Shown piece after piece: positions 1-9,662 of a stretch of DNA of 40,372 nt (its first letter is position 1; each line of letters begins with the position of its first letter). Both the position numbers and the translations under genes were made by a program. The stretch comes from Planctomyces sp. SH-PL62 (lineage in GTDB: Bacteria; Planctomycetota; Planctomycetia; Planctomycetales; Planctomycetaceae), in contig CAMDPX010000045.1 in assembly GCA_945905295.1 (NCBI GenBank), forward strand, positions 1 to 40,372, written 5' to 3'. The notes beneath the pieces were generated by a model, which was not told the origin of the DNA, made no database searches, and saw only the letters and a program-made list of their open reading frames with translations.

Positions 1-99
1 CCAGGGCCGTTGGCCCTGGCTGGGAGAATCCATGGCCCGTTGGGCCGACGAACAAACGGCCCTTCGGGCCGACAAACGACCGGAACTGCGAACCGAAAA
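1..99. repeat. Fragment of the chemotaxis-operon palindromic element
   Basis: The window opens inside the right half of the GGCCC-type palindromic element found at the other junctions of this operon. Visible palindromes are CCAGGGCCgttGGCCCTGG at 1-19, GGCCCgttGGGCC at 34-46 and GGCCCttcGGGCC at 58-70. The left half, if present, lies outside the window. The frame upstream of cheR is open through this repeat, which gives a spurious N-terminal extension. Confidence 0.8.
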
Positions 100-150
100 C
101 CCACAACCACCTCGCGGCCCATCGGGCTGAAACTCATTTCAAATCACGTC

Positions 151-1653
151 ATGTCTCAAGTCGTCTGGTCCGATCCTCACGTCGAGCGAATCGTGCAGCA
201 GGTCTGTACTCGGACCGGGTTGTTTTTTCGGGACTCGCAGCGTGAGACCGTTGAACTGGGAATTCGCCATGCGATGCAGTTGGCGAAACAGACCAGCGTC
301 GCGGAGTACGGTCAGCATCTTGAACGGCATGCGCGCGCGTTCGACGAGTTGATCATCGAACTGACCGTCGGTGAGACGTACTTCTTCCGCGATACCGGTC
401 AGATGGAATTCATTCGCCGGAACATCCTGCCGGAGATCTGCGAACGTCGCGGCATCAGTCATCCGATTCGCATTTGGAGCGCGGGTTGTGCCACGGGTGA
501 GGAGCCGTATTCGTTGGCGATGCTGTTGACCGAAGAGGGATTGGCGGATCGGGCTCACATCTTGGCGACGGACATTTCGCGCCGCTCGTTGGAGCGTGCT
601 CAGCAGGCGCATTACGGCGAATGGTCGTTGCGCGGCGAAGGGGCCAAGGTCGCGCGGAAGTATCTGCGGCAAGACGGGGACCGGTATCACGTGCATCCGT
701 TGATTCAGTCGCGCGTGCAGTTCGAGTACTTGAACTTGGCGCTCGACGTGTATCCCTCGAGCGTCACGGGAACGCGCGATCTCGATTTGATTCTCTGCCG
801 CAATGTGATGATCTATTTCGATCGCGACACGATCGCGTCCATCGCACAGCGTTTTTATGAGTCGCTCACTCCGGGCGGTTGGTTAGTCGCGGCGGCGGGC
901 GATCCGTCGTTAGAAGATCATGCGCCGTTTGAGACGACGATCACCAACTCTGGGCTGTTCTATCGCCGAGGTCAGGCCGGCAAATCGTCCGCGTTCTCTG
1001 TTGTCCGGGGTCAGGCACCGCAAAATTCAAAATTGGCGGAATCAAGCGCTGGAAGTACTCAGGCTCTCGCTCCGCCAATTTTGAATTTTGCGGTGCCTGA
1101 CCCCTGTCTGTGGAATTGTCGTGTACCCGCCGTCGTCGCTCCGTCGGGAACCGTTGCCGCTGCGGCGAACATCGAGACGTTGGCGACGGCTCAGCGGGCT
1201 TTGGAGGACGGTGAATACCAACGCTCCGCGGAGATTGCCGCGCGGTTGCCGGACACGGCGGACTCGGTCGCGATTCGCGTGCAGGCGCTGGCGAACTCCG
1301 ATCTGCCGCAAGCCGAGCAGGTCTGTGACGCGGCGACGAAACGACACGCGCTGTCGGCTCATCTGCAATATCTGCACGCGGTGCTGTTGCTTGATCTGAG
1401 CCGCGAGCAGGAAGCGGCTCAGGCGGCGCGGCGAGCGGTGTATCTCGACAACTCACTGGCGATCGCGCACTTCACATTGGGTTCGATCCTGCGTCGGCTC
1501 GGCGATCTCGAAGGAGCGCGACGATCGTTTCGCAACGCGCGCGATCTGTGTGTCGCTCGGCCGGCCGATGAGGTCATTCGTTTTTCTGACGGCGAGCACG
1601 CGGGCACGTTGGCTCGCGCGGCGCAACTGCAATTGGAAAGCTTGAACCGATGA
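151..1653 (+). CDS. cheR: CheR-type MCP methyltransferase with C-terminal TPR-like region
   Basis: S-adenosylmethionine-dependent glutamate methyltransferase expected to methylate the receptor encoded two genes downstream. The SAM-binding motif SAGCATGEEPYSLA starts near residue 110, and LILCRNVMIYFD follows near residue 210, both typical of CheR. The C-terminal part (about 340-500) is alanine- and arginine-rich with TPR-like helices, for example AHFTLGSILRRLGDLEGARR. CheR-TPR fusions are typical of Wsp (WspC) and Frz-type systems. I placed the start at 151 (MSQVVW) because the open frame upstream is palindromic repeat sequence. No strong ribosome binding site is seen. The linker between the two domains contains an in-frame inverted repeat at 1007-1104. 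The stop overlaps the cheW start (ATGA), so translation is probably coupled. Confidence 0.93.
   Translation: MSQVVWSDPHVERIVQQVCTRTGLFFRDSQRETVELGIRHAMQLAKQTSVAEYGQHLERHARAFDELIIELTVGETYFFRDTGQMEFIRRNILPEICERRGISHPIRIWSAGCATGEEPYSLAMLLTEEGLADRAHILATDISRRSLERAQQAHYGEWSLRGEGAKVARKYLRQDGDRYHVHPLIQSRVQFEYLNLALDVYPSSVTGTRDLDLILCRNVMIYFDRDTIASIAQRFYESLTPGGWLVAAAGDPSLEDHAPFETTITNSGLFYRRGQAGKSSAFSVVRGQAPQNSKLAESSAGSTQALAPPILNFAVPDPCLWNCRVPAVVAPSGTVAAAANIETLATAQRALEDGEYQRSAEIAARLPDTADSVAIRVQALANSDLPQAEQVCDAATKRHALSAHLQYLHAVLLLDLSREQEAAQAARRAVYLDNSLAIAHFTLGSILRRLGDLEGARRSFRNARDLCVARPADEVIRFSDGEHAGTLARAAQLQLESLNR
1007..1104. repeat. Perfect 34-bp inverted repeat inside cheR
   Basis: Left arm 1007-1040 and right arm 1071-1104 are exact reverse complements over 34 bases, around a 30-base loop. 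The arms begin GGGGTCAGGCACC and end GGTGCCTGACCCC. It lies in frame in the linker between the methyltransferase domain and the TPR-like region of CheR and adds about 32 residues without a stop. The GGGGTC/GACCCC ends resemble the intergenic hairpins at 33762 and 38019. Confidence 0.95.
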
Positions 1654-2264
1654 TCCAACCGACTCCGCAAAAGAAGGCGTTCAATTGGGACGAGGCGAAG
1701 GCGCGGCTCGCTCGATCGGCGGCGGCGTTCACCGACGTCGAAAATCTTTCGCCCGAACAAGCCAAGGCGATCATGGATCAGCGAGCTCACAAGCTGGCCC
1801 GCACGCCGCCTCAGGAACCGAATGCCGGCGAGTTGCTGGAGCTGGTCACGTTCCGGCTCGGCGGTGAACGGTTCGCGATCGAAGCGCGTTTCGTCCACGA
1901 GATGATTCATCTCGAACACATCACCCCCATCCCCGACGCGCCCGACTTCTTGCTGGGGACCACCAACCTCCGCGGTGAGGTGCTGGCGGTGCTCGACGTG
2001 CGCGGATTCTTCGGAGCCTCACGCACCACCGCGGACATCGCATCAGCCGCGTTGGTCCTGGGAGAGGCCCGCATCGAGTTCGCTCTGATCGCCGACGAGG
2101 TCGAGGAAGTCGCGACATTCCGAACGACTGATTTCTTCGATGCGACCAGTGCATTTTCCTCGATCGGTAGAGATTGGGTCAGGGGAGCCTCCAACAGCGC
2201 GTTAATACTGTTAGATGCCAAAGCCTTGCTGAATGATCAGCGACTGTTCGTGGATGAAGCCTAG
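1650..2264 (+). CDS. cheW: CheW coupling protein
   Basis: Scaffold that links the receptor to the CheA kinase. The CheW domain runs from about residue 62 to the end. It starts LLELVTFRLGGERFAIEA and contains the characteristic PDFLLGTTNLRGEVLAVLDV segment. The first 60 residues are a charged, probably flexible extension. With 204 residues it is slightly longer than typical CheW because of this extension. The ATG overlaps the cheR stop codon by four bases, which fixes the start and implies translational coupling. It is followed by palindromic repeat DNA before the receptor gene. Confidence 0.93.
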   Translation: MIQPTPQKKAFNWDEAKARLARSAAAFTDVENLSPEQAKAIMDQRAHKLARTPPQEPNAGELLELVTFRLGGERFAIEARFVHEMIHLEHITPIPDAPDFLLGTTNLRGEVLAVLDVRGFFGASRTTADIASAALVLGEARIEFALIADEVEEVATFRTTDFFDATSAFSSIGRDWVRGASNSALILLDAKALLNDQRLFVDEA

Positions 2265-2312
2265 TGTCTCGGCCCAATGGGCCAATTCGTTCCGGCCGAA
2301 CCGGCCAATGTG

Positions 2313-2529
2313 TCCCGGCCCAACGGGCCATGAATTCCCCCAGCCAGGGCCTACGGCCCTGGGAAACGTCCCCACAAATTACGACATCGGCCCAACGGGC
2401 CAATCGTTCGCCGAATGGATTGATCGACGAAATCGAATGACCGGCCCGTTGGGCCTCACAAACAATATCGACCGCCGTTCCAGGGCCGCTGGCCCTGGCT
2501 GGGCGAACGAATGGCCCTTCGGGCCGGAA
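2313..2529. repeat. 217-bp composite palindromic element, copy 1
   Basis: This fills the cheW-receptor gap of 357 bases. The outer arms contain GGCCCaacGGGCC followed by CCAGGGCCtacGGCCCTGG on the left, and their inverted counterparts end in GGCCCttcGGGCCGGAA on the right. An inner pair GGCCCaacGGGCC / GGCCCgttGGGCC surrounds a central segment containing CGAATGGATTGATCGACGAAA. Two extra small palindromes (GGCCCaatGGGCC at 2271-2283 and a CCGGCCgaaCCGGCC nearby) precede it. It has the same length as the copies at 4404 and 5386. No gene is seen here. Confidence 0.9.
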
Positions 2530-2621
2530 CCACAACAGAATCCCTAATCGAAACTGAATGCGCAATCGCAACGACCACCGGCAGTCATTGAGCCGACCAA
2601 ACCGAAATGAAGGACTCACTC

Positions 2622-4331
2622 ATGGCCAAGAAGAAGGCGACGAAGAAGCCGATCAGCATCAAGCGAGCCGCTCCAAAACAAAAGCCGGCCGCTCCGAAGC
2701 GACAACCCGTCGCGAAGCCCGCCAAGAAGTTTGAGGACTTCTACCGCTTGATGGTGGATACGATCACCGACTACGCGATCACGCGGCTCGATCCCGAGGG
2801 GCGCGTCGTCAGTTGGAATCCTGGGGCCGAGGGGATCAAGGGTTACAAAGCGGAAGAGATCATCGGCCAGCACATCTCCCGGTTCTATCCCAAGGAGGCC
2901 GTCGATCGCGGCTGGCCGGAGCAGGAACTCACGCGAGCGTTGGCCGAAGGTCGTTTTGAAGATCAAGATTGGCGCGTGAAGAAAGACGGCTCGCAATTCT
3001 GGGCCAACGTGATCATCACGCCGTTGCGAGACTCGCAGGGACACCACATCGGTTTCACGAAGGTCACGCGCGACTTCACCGAACGCAAACAACTCGACGA
3101 AGCGCTGGCCGCTGAGAAGTCTCGCGCACAGGCCATCTTCCAATTCACCGCCGATTGCCTGATTACGATCGACGAGCGAGGCATCATCCAGTCCTGCAAC
3201 GCGACCGCCGAGAAACTCTTCGGCTATCGCTCGGAGCAACTCATCGGCAAGAACATCTCGCTGCTGGCGGCATCCCCGTATCGCGAGGAACACGACGGCT
3301 ATTTGCAGAACTATCTGCGCACCGGCATCGCGAAAATCATGGGCAAAGAGCGGGAACTGGAAGCGATCCGCAGCGACGGCAGCAAGTTCCCGATTGCTCT
3401 GCGGATCGCGGAAATGAAGGACGGCGATAAGCGGCTCTTCATCGGCACCGTGCAGGACATCACCGGACGTAAGAACGCCGAATCCGAACGCCAGCGACTG
3501 TTCGATGCCATTCGCGACGCGGTCAATCGCCTGGCCACCTCGTGCCGCGAGATCCTCGCCACGACCACTCAGCAAACCGCCGGTGCCGAACATCAAGCCG
3601 CCGCCGTTTCGCAAACGGTCATCACCGTCGATGAACTCGCTCAGACCTCCGACCAAGCCAACGAACGTGCCCGCGGCGTCGCCGATGCCGCTCGTCGAGC
3701 GGACGAAGTCAGCTCTGTCGGACGCAAAGCGATCGAGGAATCGATCACCGCGATGGGGGACGTCAAATCGCAAGTCGAGTCGATCGCCGAGAACATGCTC
3801 TCGCTGGCCGAGCGCGCTCAAGCCATCAGCGAGATCACGCTGACGGTCAACGACATCGCCGAGCAAACCAACGTGCTGGCCCTCAACGCGGCCGTTGAAG
3901 CCGCGCGAGCGGGCGAACATGGCCGAGGCTTCGCTGTCGTCGCCAGCGAAGTGAAATCGCTCGCCGAAGAATCCAAGAAAGCGACCGCTCAAGTCCGCCG
4001 CATCCTCGGCGAAATCCAGCAAGCGACCAACAGCGCCGTCATGTCGACCGAACACGGCACGCGAGCCGTCAGTTCCACCGCCGAGATCGTCAGCAAGGCG
4101 GGTGACACGATCAAAGACCTGAGCAGCACGATTGCCGACGCCGCTCGCGCCGCGGGCCAGATCTCCGCCTCCGCCGGCCAGCAGGCGGCCGCCACCACGC
4201 AACTCCGCGAAGGCATGAAGAGCATCGAAAAAGTCACGCGAGAAAACGTCCTCGCGATTCAACAAATCCAACTCGCCGCCCAGAACCTCACCGCGCTGAG
4301 CAACGAATTGGCCTCACTGACATCCGGGTAA
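2622..4331 (+). CDS. Cytosolic methyl-accepting chemotaxis protein with two PAS domains
   Basis: Sensor of the chemosensory pathway. A lysine-rich N-terminus (about 1-40) is followed by PAS 1 (about 42-155; [20 protein letters not shown] through [11 protein letters not shown]) and PAS 2 (about 165-290; [20 protein letters not shown] through [10 protein letters not shown]). A long helical signalling domain then carries the conserved receptor tip, including [19 protein letters not shown] and [16 protein letters not shown]. No membrane segment is visible, so the signal is probably internal, such as redox state or a bound cofactor. Of two possible ATGs (2607 and 2622) I prefer 2622, because AAGGA lies about 9 bases upstream of it and nothing comparable precedes 2607. 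It is expected to signal to the CheA encoded downstream. Confidence 0.93.
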
Positions 4332-4403
4332 TGAGACCCAAGACCAAGAACCAAAGTGCTCCATGCAAACACACAACGTAGTCCGACCCCAATGGCCAAT
4401 GCG

Positions 4404-4620
4404 TTCCGGCCCAAAGGGCCATGCATTCTCCCAGCCAGAGCCATCGGCCCTGGGAAATGTGCCAACGAAAACAACATCGGCCCAACGGGCCAACCGTTCG
4501 CCGAATTGGATGATTGACGAAAACGAATGACCGGCCCGTTGGGCCTCACGAATTGATTTCGGCCTCCACCCCAGGGCCGATGGCCCTGGCTGGACGAACG
4601 AATGGCCCTTCGGGCCGGAA
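4404..4620. repeat. 217-bp composite palindromic element, copy 2
   Basis: Left outer arm TTCCGGCCCaaaGGGCC...CCAGAGCCatcGGCCCTGGG and right outer arm CCCAGGGCCgatGGCCCTGG...GGCCCttcGGGCCGGAA are imperfect inverted copies. Inner GGCCCaacGGGCC and GGCCCgttGGGCC form a second inverted pair. The layout and length are identical to the copy at 5386. It lies in the 494-base gap between the receptor gene and the transposase. No gene is seen in this gap. Confidence 0.92.
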
Positions 4621-4712
4621 CCGCAAACCGCAAACTGGTAATCACCGAAACCACAAACTGCTCATCACCGAAACCGCAATACCTTCTGAATTCCATTGAG
4701 ATCATCTCTGTG

Positions 4713-4809
4713 TTCCGGCCCAAAGGGCCATGCGTTCTCCCAGCCAGGGCCAACGGCCCTGGGCGATGTCGACCCACCAACCTGATCGGCCCAACGGGCC
4801 AACCATTCG
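4713..4809. repeat. Left half (97 bp) of the palindromic element, abutting the transposase
   Basis: It is colinear with the first 97 bases of the 217-bp copies: TTCCGGCCCaaaGGGCC, then CCAGGGCCaacGGCCCTGGG, then GGCCCaacGGGCC and CCATTCG. Similarity stops at about 4809, 16 bases before the transposase start codon. The right half is missing here. This suggests the transposase gene occupies, or was delivered together with, this half element. Confidence 0.85.
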
Positions 4810-4825
4810 TCTGGAGTATTATGTC

Positions 4826-5281
4826 GTGCCGCAATCCCTCTCCCGTGTTTGGTTGCATCTCGTCTTCAGCACCAAGAATCGTCGCGCGTTTCTCCAAAAG
4901 GAAACGTTTCGCGAGGAGATGTTTCGCATGTTGAGCCATCACGTCGAACAAATGGGCTGCGTTCCCGTCCGTTGCGGCGGCTGGATCGATCACGTCCATG
5001 TCGTTTGTGGGCTATCGAGAACGGTGACGATCGCGGATTTGATCGAAGGGATCAAAACCGAAACGTCCAAGTGGGCAAAGAAGGCTCCACATTCCGTTTC
5101 GACATTTGCCTGGCAGACCGGTTACGGAGCGTTCTCAGTGAGCCAATCGAATCTGTCGCGCGTTGTGAAATATGTCGACGACCAACCCAAGCACCATCGC
5201 ACGATGTCTTTCCAAGACGAGTTCCGCAAGCTCTGCGAAAAACACGGCATCGAGATCGACGAGCGATACGTTTGGGATTGA
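4826..5281 (+). CDS. IS200-like Y1 transposase (REP-associated tyrosine transposase type)
   Basis: Single-strand DNA transposase of the HUH/Y1 superfamily (Y1_Tnp). The start is a GTG at 4826, giving the typical MPQSLSRVWLHLVFSTKNR N-terminus, with GGAG about 10 bases upstream. The HUH pair is H56 and H58 in WIDHVHVV. The catalytic tyrosine is Y116 in VVKYVDDQPKHH. The C-terminal motif SFQDEFRKLCEKHGIEID is also typical. At 151 residues it is full length and looks intact. It interrupts the chemotaxis operon in the sense orientation. It is preceded by a half palindromic element and followed about 105 bases later by a full copy, so these hairpins may be its substrates (inference). Confidence 0.9.
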   Translation: MPQSLSRVWLHLVFSTKNRRAFLQKETFREEMFRMLSHHVEQMGCVPVRCGGWIDHVHVVCGLSRTVTIADLIEGIKTETSKWAKKAPHSVSTFAWQTGYGAFSVSQSNLSRVVKYVDDQPKHHRTMSFQDEFRKLCEKHGIEIDERYVWD

Positions 5282-5385
5282 AAGGGGCGAGTTTGAAATT
5301 GAGAACGGCATGTCGGGGAGCGAGCGTGGCAAATCCAGGATTGAAGACAAGACGATTGCAGTTACGACGCGCAGACAGATTTGTG

Positions 5386-5602
5386 TTCCGGCCCAAAGGG
5401 CCATGCATTCCCCCAGCCAGGGCCATCGGCCCTGGGAAATGTGCCAACGAAAACAACATCGGCCCAACGGGCCAACCGTTCGCCGAATTGGATGATTGAC
5501 GAAATCGAATGACCGGCCCGTTGGGCCTCACGAATTGATTTTGGCCCCCATCCCAGGGCCGATGGCCCTGGCTGGGGGAATGCATGGCCCTTTGGGCCGG
5601 AA
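5386..5602. repeat. 217-bp composite palindromic element, copy 3, perfect 52-bp arms
   Basis: Outer arms 5386-5437 and 5551-5602 are exact inverted copies over 52 bases. Each arm contains two smaller palindromes (GGCCCaaaGGGCC and CCAGGGCCatcGGCCCTGG). The interior carries GGCCCaacGGGCC (5461-5473) and GGCCCgttGGGCC (5515-5527). It is the best-preserved copy and lies between the transposase and cheA. The rest of the 491-base gap (5282-5385 and 5603-5772) shows no gene. Confidence 0.95.
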
Positions 5603-5772
5603 CCGCAAAACCGCAATTCGCGGTTAATCGACATCACAATCCGCTCGGTACGGACACCGAACATAACTACGAATCACAATGCCAAATCCAAAACACAACA
5701 ACTCAAATCACATTCCGTAAAACGCAAACTGCATCACACGCGCCGCCAACCAACGGCACCCGAGCACAAATC

Positions 5773-8073
5773 ATGGACAAGCAAGAACTCGCACAACGAT
5801 TGATGGTGGCGTTCCTCGAAGAGCTGGACGAGCACGTCGGCGCAATGAACCGGCACCTGTTGGCTCTGGAAAAGAACCCGCCGGCGGAGCAGCGGCAAGC
5901 GTTGCTGAAGGAACTGTTTCGCTCGGCGCACACGATGAAGGGGGCGGCGAACGCCAACAGCATTCGGCCGATCGAGCAATTCTGCCATCGGCTGGAAGAC
6001 ATTCTGGTCGCCGTCCGAGATGGCAAACGCACCTTTACCGACGACTTGTTTGCGATTTGCTTTCAAGCCGCCGACGCGCTGGAGGAAGCGGGTTCGCGAT
6101 TGCGAGAAGAAGAGGATTTGGACGACTCGCCGCTGGTCGACTTGATGCCGTTGATCGAACGGGCCGCAGCGGGCGAAACCGTATTGCTTGCCAAACCCAC
6201 ACGACCACGGGAGAGCGAGGCTCCCGCCGAGCCGGTGCTTTCCACAAACCTCGGCTCGGCGGGAGCCTCGCCCTCCCAGGCGGTCGTTCTTGCATCGGAC
6301 AGTTCGCCCGAGCGATCGACCGCCAGCGTGCGAGTCGCAGCGGAAAAGCTCGACATGTTGCTGGCCCAGACGGGCGAACTGCTGGTCGCGCGGCGGCGCG
6401 TCGAGTCGCGTTTGTCGGAGATCCACGATCTGCGCGATTGGACCGCCGAATGGTCCGCCGCGTGGCGGATGGTTGAGAAGCCAATCCGCAAGTTCACCGA
6501 ACCAGCTCGCGTCGACGGAAAATCGGAAGCGGTTCAACGACCAGCGTTGCCTCGCCGAGCGGCCGCTGTGCTGCAACAAACGGGCGATCGGATTCGGCAA
6601 CTCGAAAAACGATTCGAGCACCTCGCCAAAATGTTGCGAGACGACGGGAGATTGCTGGCTCAAACGTGCGACGCGCTGGACGATGAGGTCAATCGGGTCC
6701 GCATGTTGCCGTTTGCCGAAGCGTGCGCCGGACTCGAACGTGCGGTGCGCGATCTGGCTCGCACTACCGGCAAGCAAGTCGAGTTGGTTATCGAAGGGGC
6801 GGATGTCGAAGTCGATCGCTCGGTGTTGGAAGAGTTGAAAGGTCCGTTGCTGCACCTCGTTCGCAACGCGGTCGATCACGGCGTCGAGTCGCCTGATGAG
6901 CGTGAGTTGGCCGGCAAACCGCCGGCCGCGAAGGTCACGGTCTCTGCGGCGATTCGCGGAGCGATGATTGAAGTGGTGATCTCGGACGACGGCAAAGGTT
7001 TTGATACGCATCGCATTCGCGAGATCGCCACCCAACGCGGCTTGTCGATTCCGCAAGAAGAACGCGATCTTGTCCGTCTGATCTTTCAGGCGGGGTTCTC
7101 GACCGTTCGTGCCGTCACCGACATCTCCGGCCGAGGCATCGGATTGGACGTCGTGCAAAGCAAGATCGAAGCCTTGCATGGCACCGTCGATGTGGACTTC
7201 GCTCCGGGAAACGGCGCACGCTTCACACTGCAAGTGCCGCTGACGCTGACCACGATCGGCGCCGTGCTGGCTCGCGTGGGTGAGCACACCTACGTCATCC
7301 CCACGACTAGCGTGCGCAAAATTCTGCGGTTCGATACGTCGAGCGTCGCGTCGGTCGGTGGCCGCAGTTGCTTGCTCAACGGCGAGACGCCGATTCCGAT
7401 CAGTTTTCTTTCGGAGTTCGTCCGCCCCGGTTCCACCGCGCAGTTCACGGGCCGCAAACAATTGGGGATTGAACTGAGTTCGGCCAACAGCAAAGTGGTC
7501 TTCGTCGTGGACGAAATCGTCGCCGAACAAGAGGTGGTCGTGAAAACTCTGGGCCAGCGCATTCGTCGAGTCCGACATGTCTCCGGCGCGACGTTGTTGC
7601 CGTCCGGCCGAGTCGCGTTGCTCTTGAACACTCCGAGTCTGATTCGTTCGGCGTTAGGTCAGAACTCGACGATCGCCGCGATGCCGAAGTCCGATGCCGA
7701 ATCAGTGCGTGTGCGCCGCCTGCTGGTCGCCGAGGATTCGCTGACGACGCGCACGCTGATGAAGAGCATCCTGGAAACCGCCGGCTACGAAGTCGTCACC
7801 GCCGCCGACGGCCAGCAAGCTTGGGAAACGCTTGCCAAAGAAAAGTTCGATCTGGTCGTCAGCGATGTCGACATGCCCCGCATGACCGGCTTCGAGCTGA
7901 CCAAGACGATTCGCGGCAGCCGACAGTTCGTGAACCTGCCGGTCATCCTGGTAACAGCTCGGCATTCCGACGAAGACAAGGCCCGCGGCGTCGGCGCGGG
8001 GGCGAACGGGTACGTCGTGAAAAGTGCGTTCGACCAGCGCGTGTTGTTGGAGACGATCGGTCAATTGTTGTGA
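5773..8073 (+). CDS. cheA: CheA histidine kinase with fused C-terminal receiver domain
   Basis: Central kinase of the pathway. The HPt domain at the N-terminus has the phosphorylatable H53 in SAHTMKGAA. A proline- and alanine-rich linker (about 140-185) contains an in-frame inverted repeat. Dimerisation helices follow, then the ATP-binding domain with N-box HLVRNAVDHGVES, G1 SDDGKGFD and G2 GRGIGLDVV. A CheW-like domain comes next and a receiver domain ends the protein, with predicted acceptor D698 in VVSDVDMP. CheA-REC hybrids are typical of Wsp (WspE), Frz (FrzE) and related non-flagellar systems. The ATG at 5773 (MDKQELAQ) is preferred because the upstream in-frame extension is palindrome-derived. 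At 766 residues it is complete. No separate CheY or output gene lies in the window. Confidence 0.95.
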   Translation: MDKQELAQRLMVAFLEELDEHVGAMNRHLLALEKNPPAEQRQALLKELFRSAHTMKGAANANSIRPIEQFCHRLEDILVAVRDGKRTFTDDLFAICFQAADALEEAGSRLREEEDLDDSPLVDLMPLIERAAAGETVLLAKPTRPRESEAPAEPVLSTNLGSAGASPSQAVVLASDSSPERSTASVRVAAEKLDMLLAQTGELLVARRRVESRLSEIHDLRDWTAEWSAAWRMVEKPIRKFTEPARVDGKSEAVQRPALPRRAAAVLQQTGDRIRQLEKRFEHLAKMLRDDGRLLAQTCDALDDEVNRVRMLPFAEACAGLERAVRDLARTTGKQVELVIEGADVEVDRSVLEELKGPLLHLVRNAVDHGVESPDERELAGKPPAAKVTVSAAIRGAMIEVVISDDGKGFDTHRIREIATQRGLSIPQEERDLVRLIFQAGFSTVRAVTDISGRGIGLDVVQSKIEALHGTVDVDFAPGNGARFTLQVPLTLTTIGAVLARVGEHTYVIPTTSVRKILRFDTSSVASVGGRSCLLNGETPIPISFLSEFVRPGSTAQFTGRKQLGIELSSANSKVVFVVDEIVAEQEVVVKTLGQRIRRVRHVSGATLLPSGRVALLLNTPSLIRSALGQNSTIAAMPKSDAESVRVRRLLVAEDSLTTRTLMKSILETAGYEVVTAADGQQAWETLAKEKFDLVVSDVDMPRMTGFELTKTIRGSRQFVNLPVILVTARHSDEDKARGVGAGANGYVVKSAFDQRVLLETIGQLL
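6209..6277. repeat. 26-bp inverted repeat inside cheA linker
   Basis: Arms 6209-6234 and 6252-6277 match in inverted orientation at 25 of 26 positions, around a 17-base loop. In frame they read as alanine/proline-rich peptides (ESEAPAEP and GSAGASPSQ), placed between the HPt and dimerisation domains. It is a different sequence family from the intergenic elements of the operon. Confidence 0.92.
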
Positions 8074-8109
8074 GGAAAGAAAGATGAATGACCGGAACAG
8101 GTGAGAAAG

Positions 8110-8258
8110 ATCATTGATTGGAGCAGATCATTGATTGGAGCAGATCATTGAATCGAGCAAATGATTGAATGGAGGAAATGATTGAATGGAGGAAATGATT
8201 GGATGGAGGAAATGATTGGATGGAGGAATTGATTGGATGGAGGAAATGATTGAACGAG
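8110..8258. repeat. 17-bp tandem repeat, about 8.7 units
   Basis: Units start at 8110, 8127, 8144, 8161, 8178, 8195, 8212, 8229 and 8246. The consensus is ATGATTGAATGGAGGAA with an earlier variant ATCATTGATTGGAGCAG. Central units are identical or differ by one or two bases, with a gradient from one variant to the other along the array. Later units carry GGAGGAAATG, which resembles a Shine-Dalgarno sequence close to an ATG, but no gene starts here. It lies in the 530-base cheA-cheB gap, which holds no gene. Confidence 0.95.
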
Positions 8259-8275
8259 ATTTGAAGTCCGAAGTG

Positions 8276-8488
8276 TTCGGCCCAACGGGCCAGCGGTTCG
8301 TCCAGCCAGGGCCATCGGCCCTGGAAAACGGACCCACACCAACAGGTAGGCCCAACGGGCCGACCGTTTATCGACTTGGAAGATTAGAAAACGAATGACC
8401 GGCCCGTTGGGCCTCACAAACATTGATGCGGCCACCGTCCCAGGGCCGTTGGCCCTGGCTGGGAGAAGGAATGGCCCTTTGGGCCGAA
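8276..8488. repeat. Composite palindromic element, copy 4 (about 213 bp)
   Basis: It has the same architecture as the 217-bp copies: outer GGCCCaacGGGCC and CCAGGGCCatcGGCCCTGG, an inner GGCCCaacGGGCC / GGCCCgttGGGCC pair, then CCAGGGCCgttGGCCCTGG and GGCCCtttGGGCC. It is slightly shorter, and its outer ends are less well matched. Its right end runs straight into the 25-bp palindrome array before cheB. Confidence 0.88.
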
Positions 8489-8590
8489 AGACAGACCGGC
8501 CCGTTGGGCCGAAAGACAGACCGGCCCTTTGGGCCGAGAGACAGACCGGCCCGTTGGGCCGACACGATGACTGGCCCGTTGGATTGGGCC
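8473..8590. repeat. 25-bp-period array of GGCCC palindromes
   Basis: Units start at 8473, 8498, 8523, 8548 and 8573. Each has GGCCC(gtt or ttt)GGGCC followed by a 12-base spacer such as GAAAGACAGACC. The last unit is broken by an insertion (GGCCCgttGGattGGGCC). The array ends 13 bases before the cheB start, so it would be transcribed into the cheB leader as a row of short hairpins. Confidence 0.9.
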
Positions 8591-8603
8591 ACAGGACACC
8601 CCC

Positions 8604-9662
8604 ATGATTCGAGTGCTCATCACCGACGATTCCGCGACCGCGCGGCAATTGCTGTCGTTCATTCTGAGCAGTGCTTCGGACATTCAAGTCGTTGGCGAAG
8701 CGGTCAACGGCGAGGAGGCCGTGCGGATGACGAGCACTCTGCGGCCGAATCTCATTCTGATGGACATTCACATGCCCGTGATGGATGGCTTGGCGGCGAC
8801 TCAAGAAATCATGATGCACACGCCGACGCCGATCGTGATCGTCTCCGCCAGCACGATGGTCCACGAAACCGAAACCGCGATGCTGTCGCTGCGAGCCGGA
8901 GCACTCACGCTGCTGCTGAAACCCGCCGGCCCGGCCGCTCCGGACCACGAACGATCGTGCCGAGAGTTGATCGACACCGTTCGAGCCATGTCTGACGTCA
9001 AAGTCGTGCGGCACCATCGCCCGTACTCCGCTCCCGAACGACGGCTGCTCAAAGCAAGGCCCGTCGCTCATTCGCCCATCAGCATCTGCGCGGTGGCGAC
9101 GTCGACCGGCGGGCCGCCGGCATTACAGAAACTCTTCAGCGGACTCCCGGCCGATTTCTCGGTGCCGATCCTCGTCGTGCAGCACATCGCGACCGGTTTC
9201 ACCGAAGGCTTGGCCAAATGGTTGGACAACAGTCTCGCGCTGACGGTGAAGGTCGCCGAGATGGGGGAGCGCCTGCGTCCCGGCACGATCTATGTGGCGC
9301 GCGAGGACTTTCATCTGGGGATCGCCCGCGACGGCACCGCACTGCTCTCGAAAGCCCCGGTCATTGAAGGCTTTCGTCCTTCGGCCACGTTTCTGTTTCG
9401 CTCGGTCGCGGAAGTTTATGGCAACCGCACACTCGCATTGATCCTGACCGGCATGGGACACGACGGTGTCGAGGGACTCCGCGATATTCGCAAAGCCGGC
9501 GGCACGATTTTCGCGCAAGACGAAGCCTCATGCGTCGTCTTCGGTATGCCCGGAGCCGCCGTGTCCGAAAACCTTCCCGACCAAATCCTACCGCTGGACC
9601 GCATGGCGACAGCCATCCTCGCCCGCATGATCGGCGTCGCGAAGTCGCAAAGTTCGATCTGA
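8604..9662 (+). CDS. cheB: CheB receptor methylesterase/deamidase
   Basis: Removes methyl groups added by CheR and so resets the receptor. An N-terminal receiver domain has the predicted acceptor D54 in LILMDIHMPVMDG. The C-terminal esterase domain carries the catalytic triad S167 (ATSTGGPPAL), H194 (VVQHIATGF) and D287 (TGMGHDGVEG). The final motif FAQDEASCVVFGMPGAA is characteristic. At 352 residues it is normal length. The start at 8604 has AGGA about 7 bases upstream. It is the last gene of the chemosensory operon in this window. Confidence 0.95.
   Translation: MIRVLITDDSATARQLLSFILSSASDIQVVGEAVNGEEAVRMTSTLRPNLILMDIHMPVMDGLAATQEIMMHTPTPIVIVSASTMVHETETAMLSLRAGALTLLLKPAGPAAPDHERSCRELIDTVRAMSDVKVVRHHRPYSAPERRLLKARPVAHSPISICAVATSTGGPPALQKLFSGLPADFSVPILVVQHIATGFTEGLAKWLDNSLALTVKVAEMGERLRPGTIYVAREDFHLGIARDGTALLSKAPVIEGFRPSATFLFRSVAEVYGNRTLALILTGMGHDGVEGLRDIRKAGGTIFAQDEASCVVFGMPGAAVSENLPDQILPLDRMATAILARMIGVAKSQSSI

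Follow-up and report, generated by a model that had tools for sequence, protein, structure and literature searches.

A 217-bp hairpin unit in a planctomycete chemosensory operon as a probable gene-less derivative of a small Y1 transposon

Four copies of a strongly palindromic unit of about 217 bp lie between the genes of a chemosensory operon in Planctomyces sp. SH-PL62 (GenBank assembly GCA_945905295.1, contig CAMDPX010000045.1, positions 1 to 40,372; this 40,372-nt stretch, the entire contig, is referred to as the window). An earlier note on this DNA took their fixed length and nested symmetry as signs of either a mobile or a structurally selected unit. Comparative analyses suggest that the 217-bp unit is, very probably, a non-autonomous miniature of a small single-stranded DNA (ssDNA) transposon, similar to the REPINs formed by repetitive extragenic palindromic (REP) sequences. 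The full element would consist of a left arm of three hairpins (A-B-C, ~97 nt), a gene (tnpA) for a 151-aa Y1 HUH transposase of subclass 1.2 type, and an inverted right arm (C'-B'-A'); the miniature would keep both arms, with a linker of 39-49 nt replacing the gene. This reading is carried by the bracketing of tnpA by such arms in relatives, the existence of gene-less units, the conservation of local hairpins, the variability of occupied sites, and the co-occurrence of arms and tnpA among genomes.

Structure and dispersal of the unit

All copies in the window are on the forward strand. Three are exactly 217 bp, at the cheW-mcp (2313-2529), mcp-tnpA (4404-4620) and tnpA-cheA (5386-5602) junctions; the fourth, at the cheA-cheB junction (8276-8489), is 214 bp, where the earlier note had given about 213. 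Copies 2313, 4404 and 8276 are 86%, 95% and 81% identical to copy 5386, respectively. The nested inverted repeats described in that note are borne out and resolve into two inverted arms with three small hairpins each (six in total, A-B-C...C'-B'-A'), and copy 5386 indeed has perfect arms over 52 bp (53 with one outside base added). Hairpins A and C are GGCCCnnnGGGCC-type. Hairpin B in the source genome reads CCAGGGCCnnnGGCCCTGG, apart from a single mismatch each in copy 4404 (left B) and a copy on contig C53. The linker length of 39-49 nt was measured in eight source-genome units. Both previously noted fragments are also genuine: a lone left arm A-B-C at 4713-4809 lies directly 5' of tnpA (85% identity over unit positions 1-97; a covariance model of the arm matches 4712-4811), and a right-arm fragment B'-A' at 1-47, upstream of cheR, matches unit positions 168-214 (91%) and is possibly cut, because the window is the entire contig.

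The statement that no copies occur beyond positions 1-8600 holds within the window by the B hairpin pattern, whose last match ends at 8458, but not genome-wide. Five further copies are present, on contigs C84, C27, C51 and C4 plus an interrupted one on C53, together with weak partial matches on C388 and C383. The five copies adjoin other genes, at unrelated intergenic sites, and a repeat specific to this operon is thus ruled out. Allowing up to two mismatches, the B pattern has 20 forward places genome-wide, compared with 3 in the control, and all 20 fall within copies or fragments of the unit; GGCCCnnnGGGCC occurs at 58 places, compared with 14 in the control. The C53 unit (locus L025, 8550-9082) is split near its centre by an insert with its own inverted repeat and CATCCGTG-type ends.

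In relatives, 20 units measure 205-231 bp, a range that is partly a selection effect, because near-full-length matches were picked and L187 is truncated where its contig stops. Longer arm spacings also exist (G145:C109 38-331 and G146:C1 6961-7269). Five near-identical unit arms in genome G087 (L220-L224) suggest recent amplification there.

A transposase gene bracketed by the same arms

The gene between the lone left arm and unit 5386 is an uninterrupted IS200-like tnpA frame (4826-5281, forward strand), which the earlier note had missed and whose GTG start was placed by alignment with relatives. Its product matches Y1_Tnp with an E value of 1.6e-20, and its clade profile matches eight solved IS200/IS605-type sequences, including ISHp608, at E values of 5.6e-13 to 2.7e-10. 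It thus has the Y1 HUH catalytic domain of IS200/IS605 transposases, and residues D55, H56, H58, W96, Q97, Y116, Q120, H123 and H124 are invariant across 20 sequences. DH[IV]H, WQ and Y---Q--HH, together with a length of 151 aa against a median of 148 aa, place it in subclass 1.2, an assignment made by motifs alone.

Relatives carry this gene between two arms, in the order A-B-C[tnpA]C'-B'-A'. Examples include loci L055, L057, L058, L061 and L083 and others, G087:C57 and G140:C39, and bracketed genes are also found outside Planctomycetota, in Verrucomicrobiota, Acidobacteriota and Bacteroidota. The frequency of inverted flanks was estimated by scoring the inverted similarity of the 250 nt upstream and downstream of each gene, a score that captures inverted similarity alone; the three-hairpin layout was judged by eye in the displayed loci. 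Scores exceeded the threshold of 23.5 at 76 of 107 clade loci, compared with 7 among 784 control placements made within those loci. By group, the fractions were 34/47 in Planctomycetota, 21/30 in Verrucomicrobiota/Kiritimatiellota, 13/19 in Bacteroidota with Chlorobi/Ignavibacteria, 4/5 in Acidobacteriota and 4/6 in others, with phyla assigned from record titles and loci from the family genomes (G handles) counted as Planctomycetota. Loci of this clade with inverted flanks span at least four phyla. Database relatives are the best 80 of 568; duplicates L089, L093 and L104 were removed from the 107-locus set, and L113, L115 and L139, which have short flanks, were left unscored. An earlier shuffle control, in which 79 of 110 loci exceeded the largest of 550 shuffles, is superseded by these natural placements. 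The window tnpA (L054) scored 36.5 in the shuffle-controlled test, and any score it has stems from the neighbouring unit.

The position of the arms relative to the gene is also regular. The C pattern lies 20-42 nt 5' of the start codon in 9 of 10 loci examined, and the C' pattern 7-16 nt past the end of codon 151 in 8 of 10; the remaining loci are L061, where the pattern picked up a different hairpin, L068, where it missed C', and the window copy, which has no C'. In gene-less units, a GAAC motif precedes C' at the end of the linker, and the tnpA stop codon of L055 and L057 overlaps a like motif. Matching of the arms around tnpA to gene-less arms gives a mixed result, the best match lying in the same genome for the source genome and G140 and in the same genus for G142.

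Arms and gene tend to occur in the same genomes. A single-unit BLAST search found matches in at least 24 of 170 family genomes, a lower bound because four candidates were scored per genome. The arm covariance model, with up to 24 candidates scored in each, matched 86 of 170; the source and family genome arms from which it was built match by construction. Relatives of tnpA are present in 81 of the 170, and both features together in 66 (Fisher p 4e-15, relatedness ignored).

The source genome has four tnpA loci of the subclass-1.2-type clade and nine further Y1_Tnp loci, any of which might be imagined to move a REPIN population in place of the adjacent gene; this is most improbable, as the inverted arms are found round genes of the subclass-1.2-type clade and no unit arms were found at the other twelve Y1 loci by BLAST (E 0.01, flanks up to 1.5 kb). 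The other three clade transposases of the genome (L008, L009 and L010) have different palindrome sets, upstream only in the stretches shown, and they did not score for inverted flanks in the shuffle-controlled test.

Occupied and empty sites, and what the hairpins are conserved for

The operon order is cheR-cheW-mcp-cheA-cheB, all on the forward strand: cheR (methyltransferase plus TPR) at 160-1653, cheW at 1650-2264, a PAS-containing methyl-accepting chemotaxis protein (MCP) gene at 2607-4331, cheA with a receiver domain at 5773-8073, and cheB at 8604-9662. Syntenic operons were available from five of the seven other family genomes with a CheA match, that of G047 lacking the cheR end; a sixth genome, G042, in which CheA and part of the MCP matched, contributes the mcp-cheA gap alone, and G043 was left out. 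The mcp-cheA gap is 1441 nt in the window compared with 2, 33, -5, -5 and 2 nt in the five operons and 32 nt in G042. Similarly, the cheA-cheB gap is 530 nt compared with 24, 29, 10, 10 and 34 nt. The suspicion that these spacers are ordinary diverged sequence is thus ruled out at both junctions, where orthologs have almost no spacer; the exclusion covers those two, the cheW-mcp gap being 342 nt in the window and 58, 85, 290, 274 and 112 nt (58-290 nt) in orthologs. Read as mobile elements, the units account for the two large che spacers with no appeal to regulation. No empty che site was available within the genus, as none of the other 11 same-genus genomes has a CheA match at E 1e-100.

Within the genus, the comparison is possible for the C51 unit, which lies between putative DUF4350-like and MoxR-like genes (named from open reading frame (ORF) reading) and is absent from the orthologous junction in G105, G111 and G109. 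In G105, the flanks are 94 and 88% identical, with 14 nt between the aligned parts. Related species thus differ in whether they have the C51 unit, although the differing stretch is larger than the unit. The G111 sequence at this junction (L199) has, by eye, CATCCGTG-type ends similar to those of the C53 insert.

The mobile half of the earlier note's alternative is accordingly supported, by fairly sharp ends, unrelated intergenic sites, absence from orthologs and linkage to an HUH gene. One way in which this might come about is that the unit is a miniature inverted-repeat transposable element (MITE) of a conventional transposon with terminal inverted repeats (TIRs), the palindromes being cargo. 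Inverted sequence outside the unit was found in 6 of 17 copies with 0 of 200 shuffles as good (the C51 copy, two in G130 and three in G013), and in the C84 copy with 1 of 200 as good. However, the four window copies and six others have no such signal, and in relatives the arms directly bracket the Y1 gene; overall, we consider this origin improbable. L023 (C51), L021 (C84), L182 and L183 (G130) have imperfect TIRs of ~20 bp with outer edges ~48-60 nt outside the unit, TTAGGCAGCC-type in the source genome and AGAACC-type in G130, with none at the four window copies. The flanks of the three G013 copies (L192-L194) are also alike past the unit boundaries and include inverted outer sequence, which looks as though the unit rides in a larger repeat.

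The other half of the alternative was that the hairpins are RNA-level regulatory elements, selected to set the CheW/MCP/CheA/CheB ratios. Folding is certainly strong: copy 5386 has a predicted RNA fold of -172.7 kcal/mol (z -17.4; none of 200 shuffles folds as stably), and its DNA fold has a z of -16.4. By a crude ORF rule, 8 of 9 source-genome copies point the same way as the gene upstream of them; copy 5386 is the exception, since an antisense ORF was picked there in place of tnpA. The text of PMC3733652 notes the hypothesis that REPs stabilise mRNA or end transcription. Nevertheless, copies lie at other genes, the mcp-cheA and cheA-cheB spacers are absent from syntenic operons, and orientation relative to the upstream gene is even in relatives (9 of 18 in the unit direction; 2 of 20 units have no upstream ORF).

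Hairpin conservation bears on the same question. An alignment of 39 arms draws on eight source-genome units, 11 units from the 20 in relatives and the lone arm at 4713, leaving out L180, L183, L186, L187, L188, L190, L193, L194, L196 and the C53 copy. Its local hairpins are 98.9% paired, a foot of nAG stands 5' of B, and a GTTC-like motif comes after both A and C. Both sides of a pair have changed in 16 cells, compared with 2.8 in shuffles, and the covariation score is 0.109 compared with 0.042; neither value was reached in 500 shuffles. The 8-bp B stem is present in both arms of 20 of 27 units (L187 and C53 set aside). In 6 of 20 units the left and right B stems differ and yet each is still locally paired; these are L182, L183 and L184 in G130 and L192, L193 and L194 in G013, and thus come from two genomes. 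The pattern leans towards recognition of small hairpins over selection for one long hairpin. With covariation local, B stems differing in these units and orientation even, the proposal of RNA hairpins setting protein ratios is not upheld, and we regard it as quite improbable.

Several observations weigh against a tnpA-driven miniature. No right arm in the window belongs to tnpA itself, since the first arm downstream is part of unit 5386, and 31 of the 107 tnpA loci have no scoring inverted flanks, including the close relatives L060, L062, L063 and L064. Of the 86 genomes with arms, 20 yield no tnpA at the chosen threshold; conversely, 15 of 81 with tnpA have no arms. Among a few hand-picked arms, those of G087:C95 and G138 find their best match outside the units of their own genome. 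The both-sided changes all fall within two base pairs of hairpin B; 326 of 500 shuffles have at least as many such pairs (mean 1.7), and a control slid by +3 is also raised (covariation 0.067). At the C51 junction, the differing stretch exceeds 217 bp, and in G111 and G109 the site is occupied by other sequence, so that no exact empty-site boundary is defined. The outer inverted sequence at six of 17 copies and at C84 suggests a second way to move, and some copies may thus have travelled in a larger TIR element. Finally, neither a cleavage site nor a circle nor a transposition event was observed.

Two other repeats adjoin the fourth unit. Its A'-type hairpin is repeated in tandem at 8473-8560 (forward strand) with a period of 25 bp (hairpins at 8473, 8498, 8523 and 8548), and a 17-bp tandem repeat occupies 8110-8262, between cheA and the unit. 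A separate palindrome, a perfect 34-bp inverted repeat with a 30-nt centre, lies at 1007-1104 within the open cheR frame. Its end, GGGGTCAGGCACC, occurs 26 times per strand in the genome (control 0). These occurrences include 16 convergent pairs that measure 97-99 bp from end to end and make up a second palindrome family of fixed length; another Y1_Tnp gene lies ~600 bp from one of them (C288:7498-7595).

Relation to known elements and implications

IS200/IS605 elements use subterminal hairpins as recognition sites, excise as ssDNA and insert beside a fixed short target with no known target duplication, and their ends, those of IS608 included, are not known to be inverted copies of each other. 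The element here shares with IS608 and ISDra2 a short Y1 HUH transposase, terminal hairpins and, presumably, an ssDNA mechanism; it differs in having three hairpins per end, the ends being inverted copies of each other. By analogy with IS200/IS605 and REP transposases, TnpA would recognise the folded arm hairpins on single-stranded DNA, Tyr116 would cut, and the unit would be excised and reinserted, with TnpA acting in trans on gene-less copies. The binding, cleavage, mobility, ssDNA intermediates and any current activity of the unit are inferred from the same analogy. With arms that are inverted copies, both strands display the same arm, so that either could serve. The window cluster of four units, an extra arm and a tnpA without a right arm looks like local spread round a resident tnpA in the che operon, because window copies are 81-95% identical to copy 5386 compared with 71-76% for the four uninterrupted copies elsewhere.

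REPINs and their REPtrons (TnpA-REP, RAYT) share several features of layout with the unit: an intergenic, inverted pair of hairpins that have a short foot (nAG in front of the B stem in this case), linkage to a Y1 gene, and palindromes that vary from one transposase to another. The feet here are CCAG, ATAG and the like as opposed to GTAG, and the B-type hairpin near L009 has a GTAG foot, as in classical REPs. Here, however, the unit has six hairpins in ~217 bp, complete inverted arms enclose the gene as well, and the linked protein has the class-1.2 motif Y---Q--HH and not the NP-type motifs given for class 2 TnpA-REP in the text of PMC6006769. Single-strand recognition and cleavage by REP transposases is shown in PMC8266576. 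TIRtrons, as presented in the text of PMC3733652, similarly combine a Y1 gene (TIRYT) with terminal inverted repeats, some self-complementary tracts and dispersed copies; a three-hairpin arm does not appear in that text, the figures being outside the comparison. In addition, 20 of 26 TIRYTs belong to subclass 2.1 and the other six to 2.2 or 2.5, according to the text of Quentin 2018 (PMC6006769). The palindrome-associated transposable elements (PATEs) of haloarchaea are likewise gene-less IS605-type derivatives that keep terminal palindromes, but they are described in the text of PMC3119063 as having no terminal inverted repeats, whereas the arms of the unit are inverted repeats. As a gene-less element sharing its ends with an autonomous one, the unit is a MITE in the broad sense.

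Subclass 1.2 itself is characterised, in the text of Quentin 2018 (PMC6006769), as a group found mainly in Cyanobacteria and Bacteroidetes that generally lacks the typical terminal structures and does not have the properties of insertion sequences. The window TnpA matches its DHVH, WQ and Y---Q--HH signature and its length, but the hairpin arms of displayed loci, the inverted flanks at 76 of 107 loci and the gene-less derivatives in the window's family depart from that description. Three-hairpin inverted arms for subclass 1.2 were not found in the open-access literature as judged from abstracts and selected passages, figures, supplements and subscription papers lying outside that scope, which falls short of showing that none has been described. 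A broader proposal, which we hold about as readily as we doubt it, is that subclass 1.2 comprises the transposases of multi-phylum, strand-symmetric ssDNA transposons with inverted three-hairpin arms that repeatedly yield near-fixed-length, gene-less, REPIN-like populations. The miniature reading by itself already supplies an orphan transposase subclass with likely DNA ends and non-autonomous derivatives, so that its activity can be tested directly on short single-stranded substrates. Inverted, strand-symmetric ends also bear on the possible origin of REPs and REPINs from insertion sequences.

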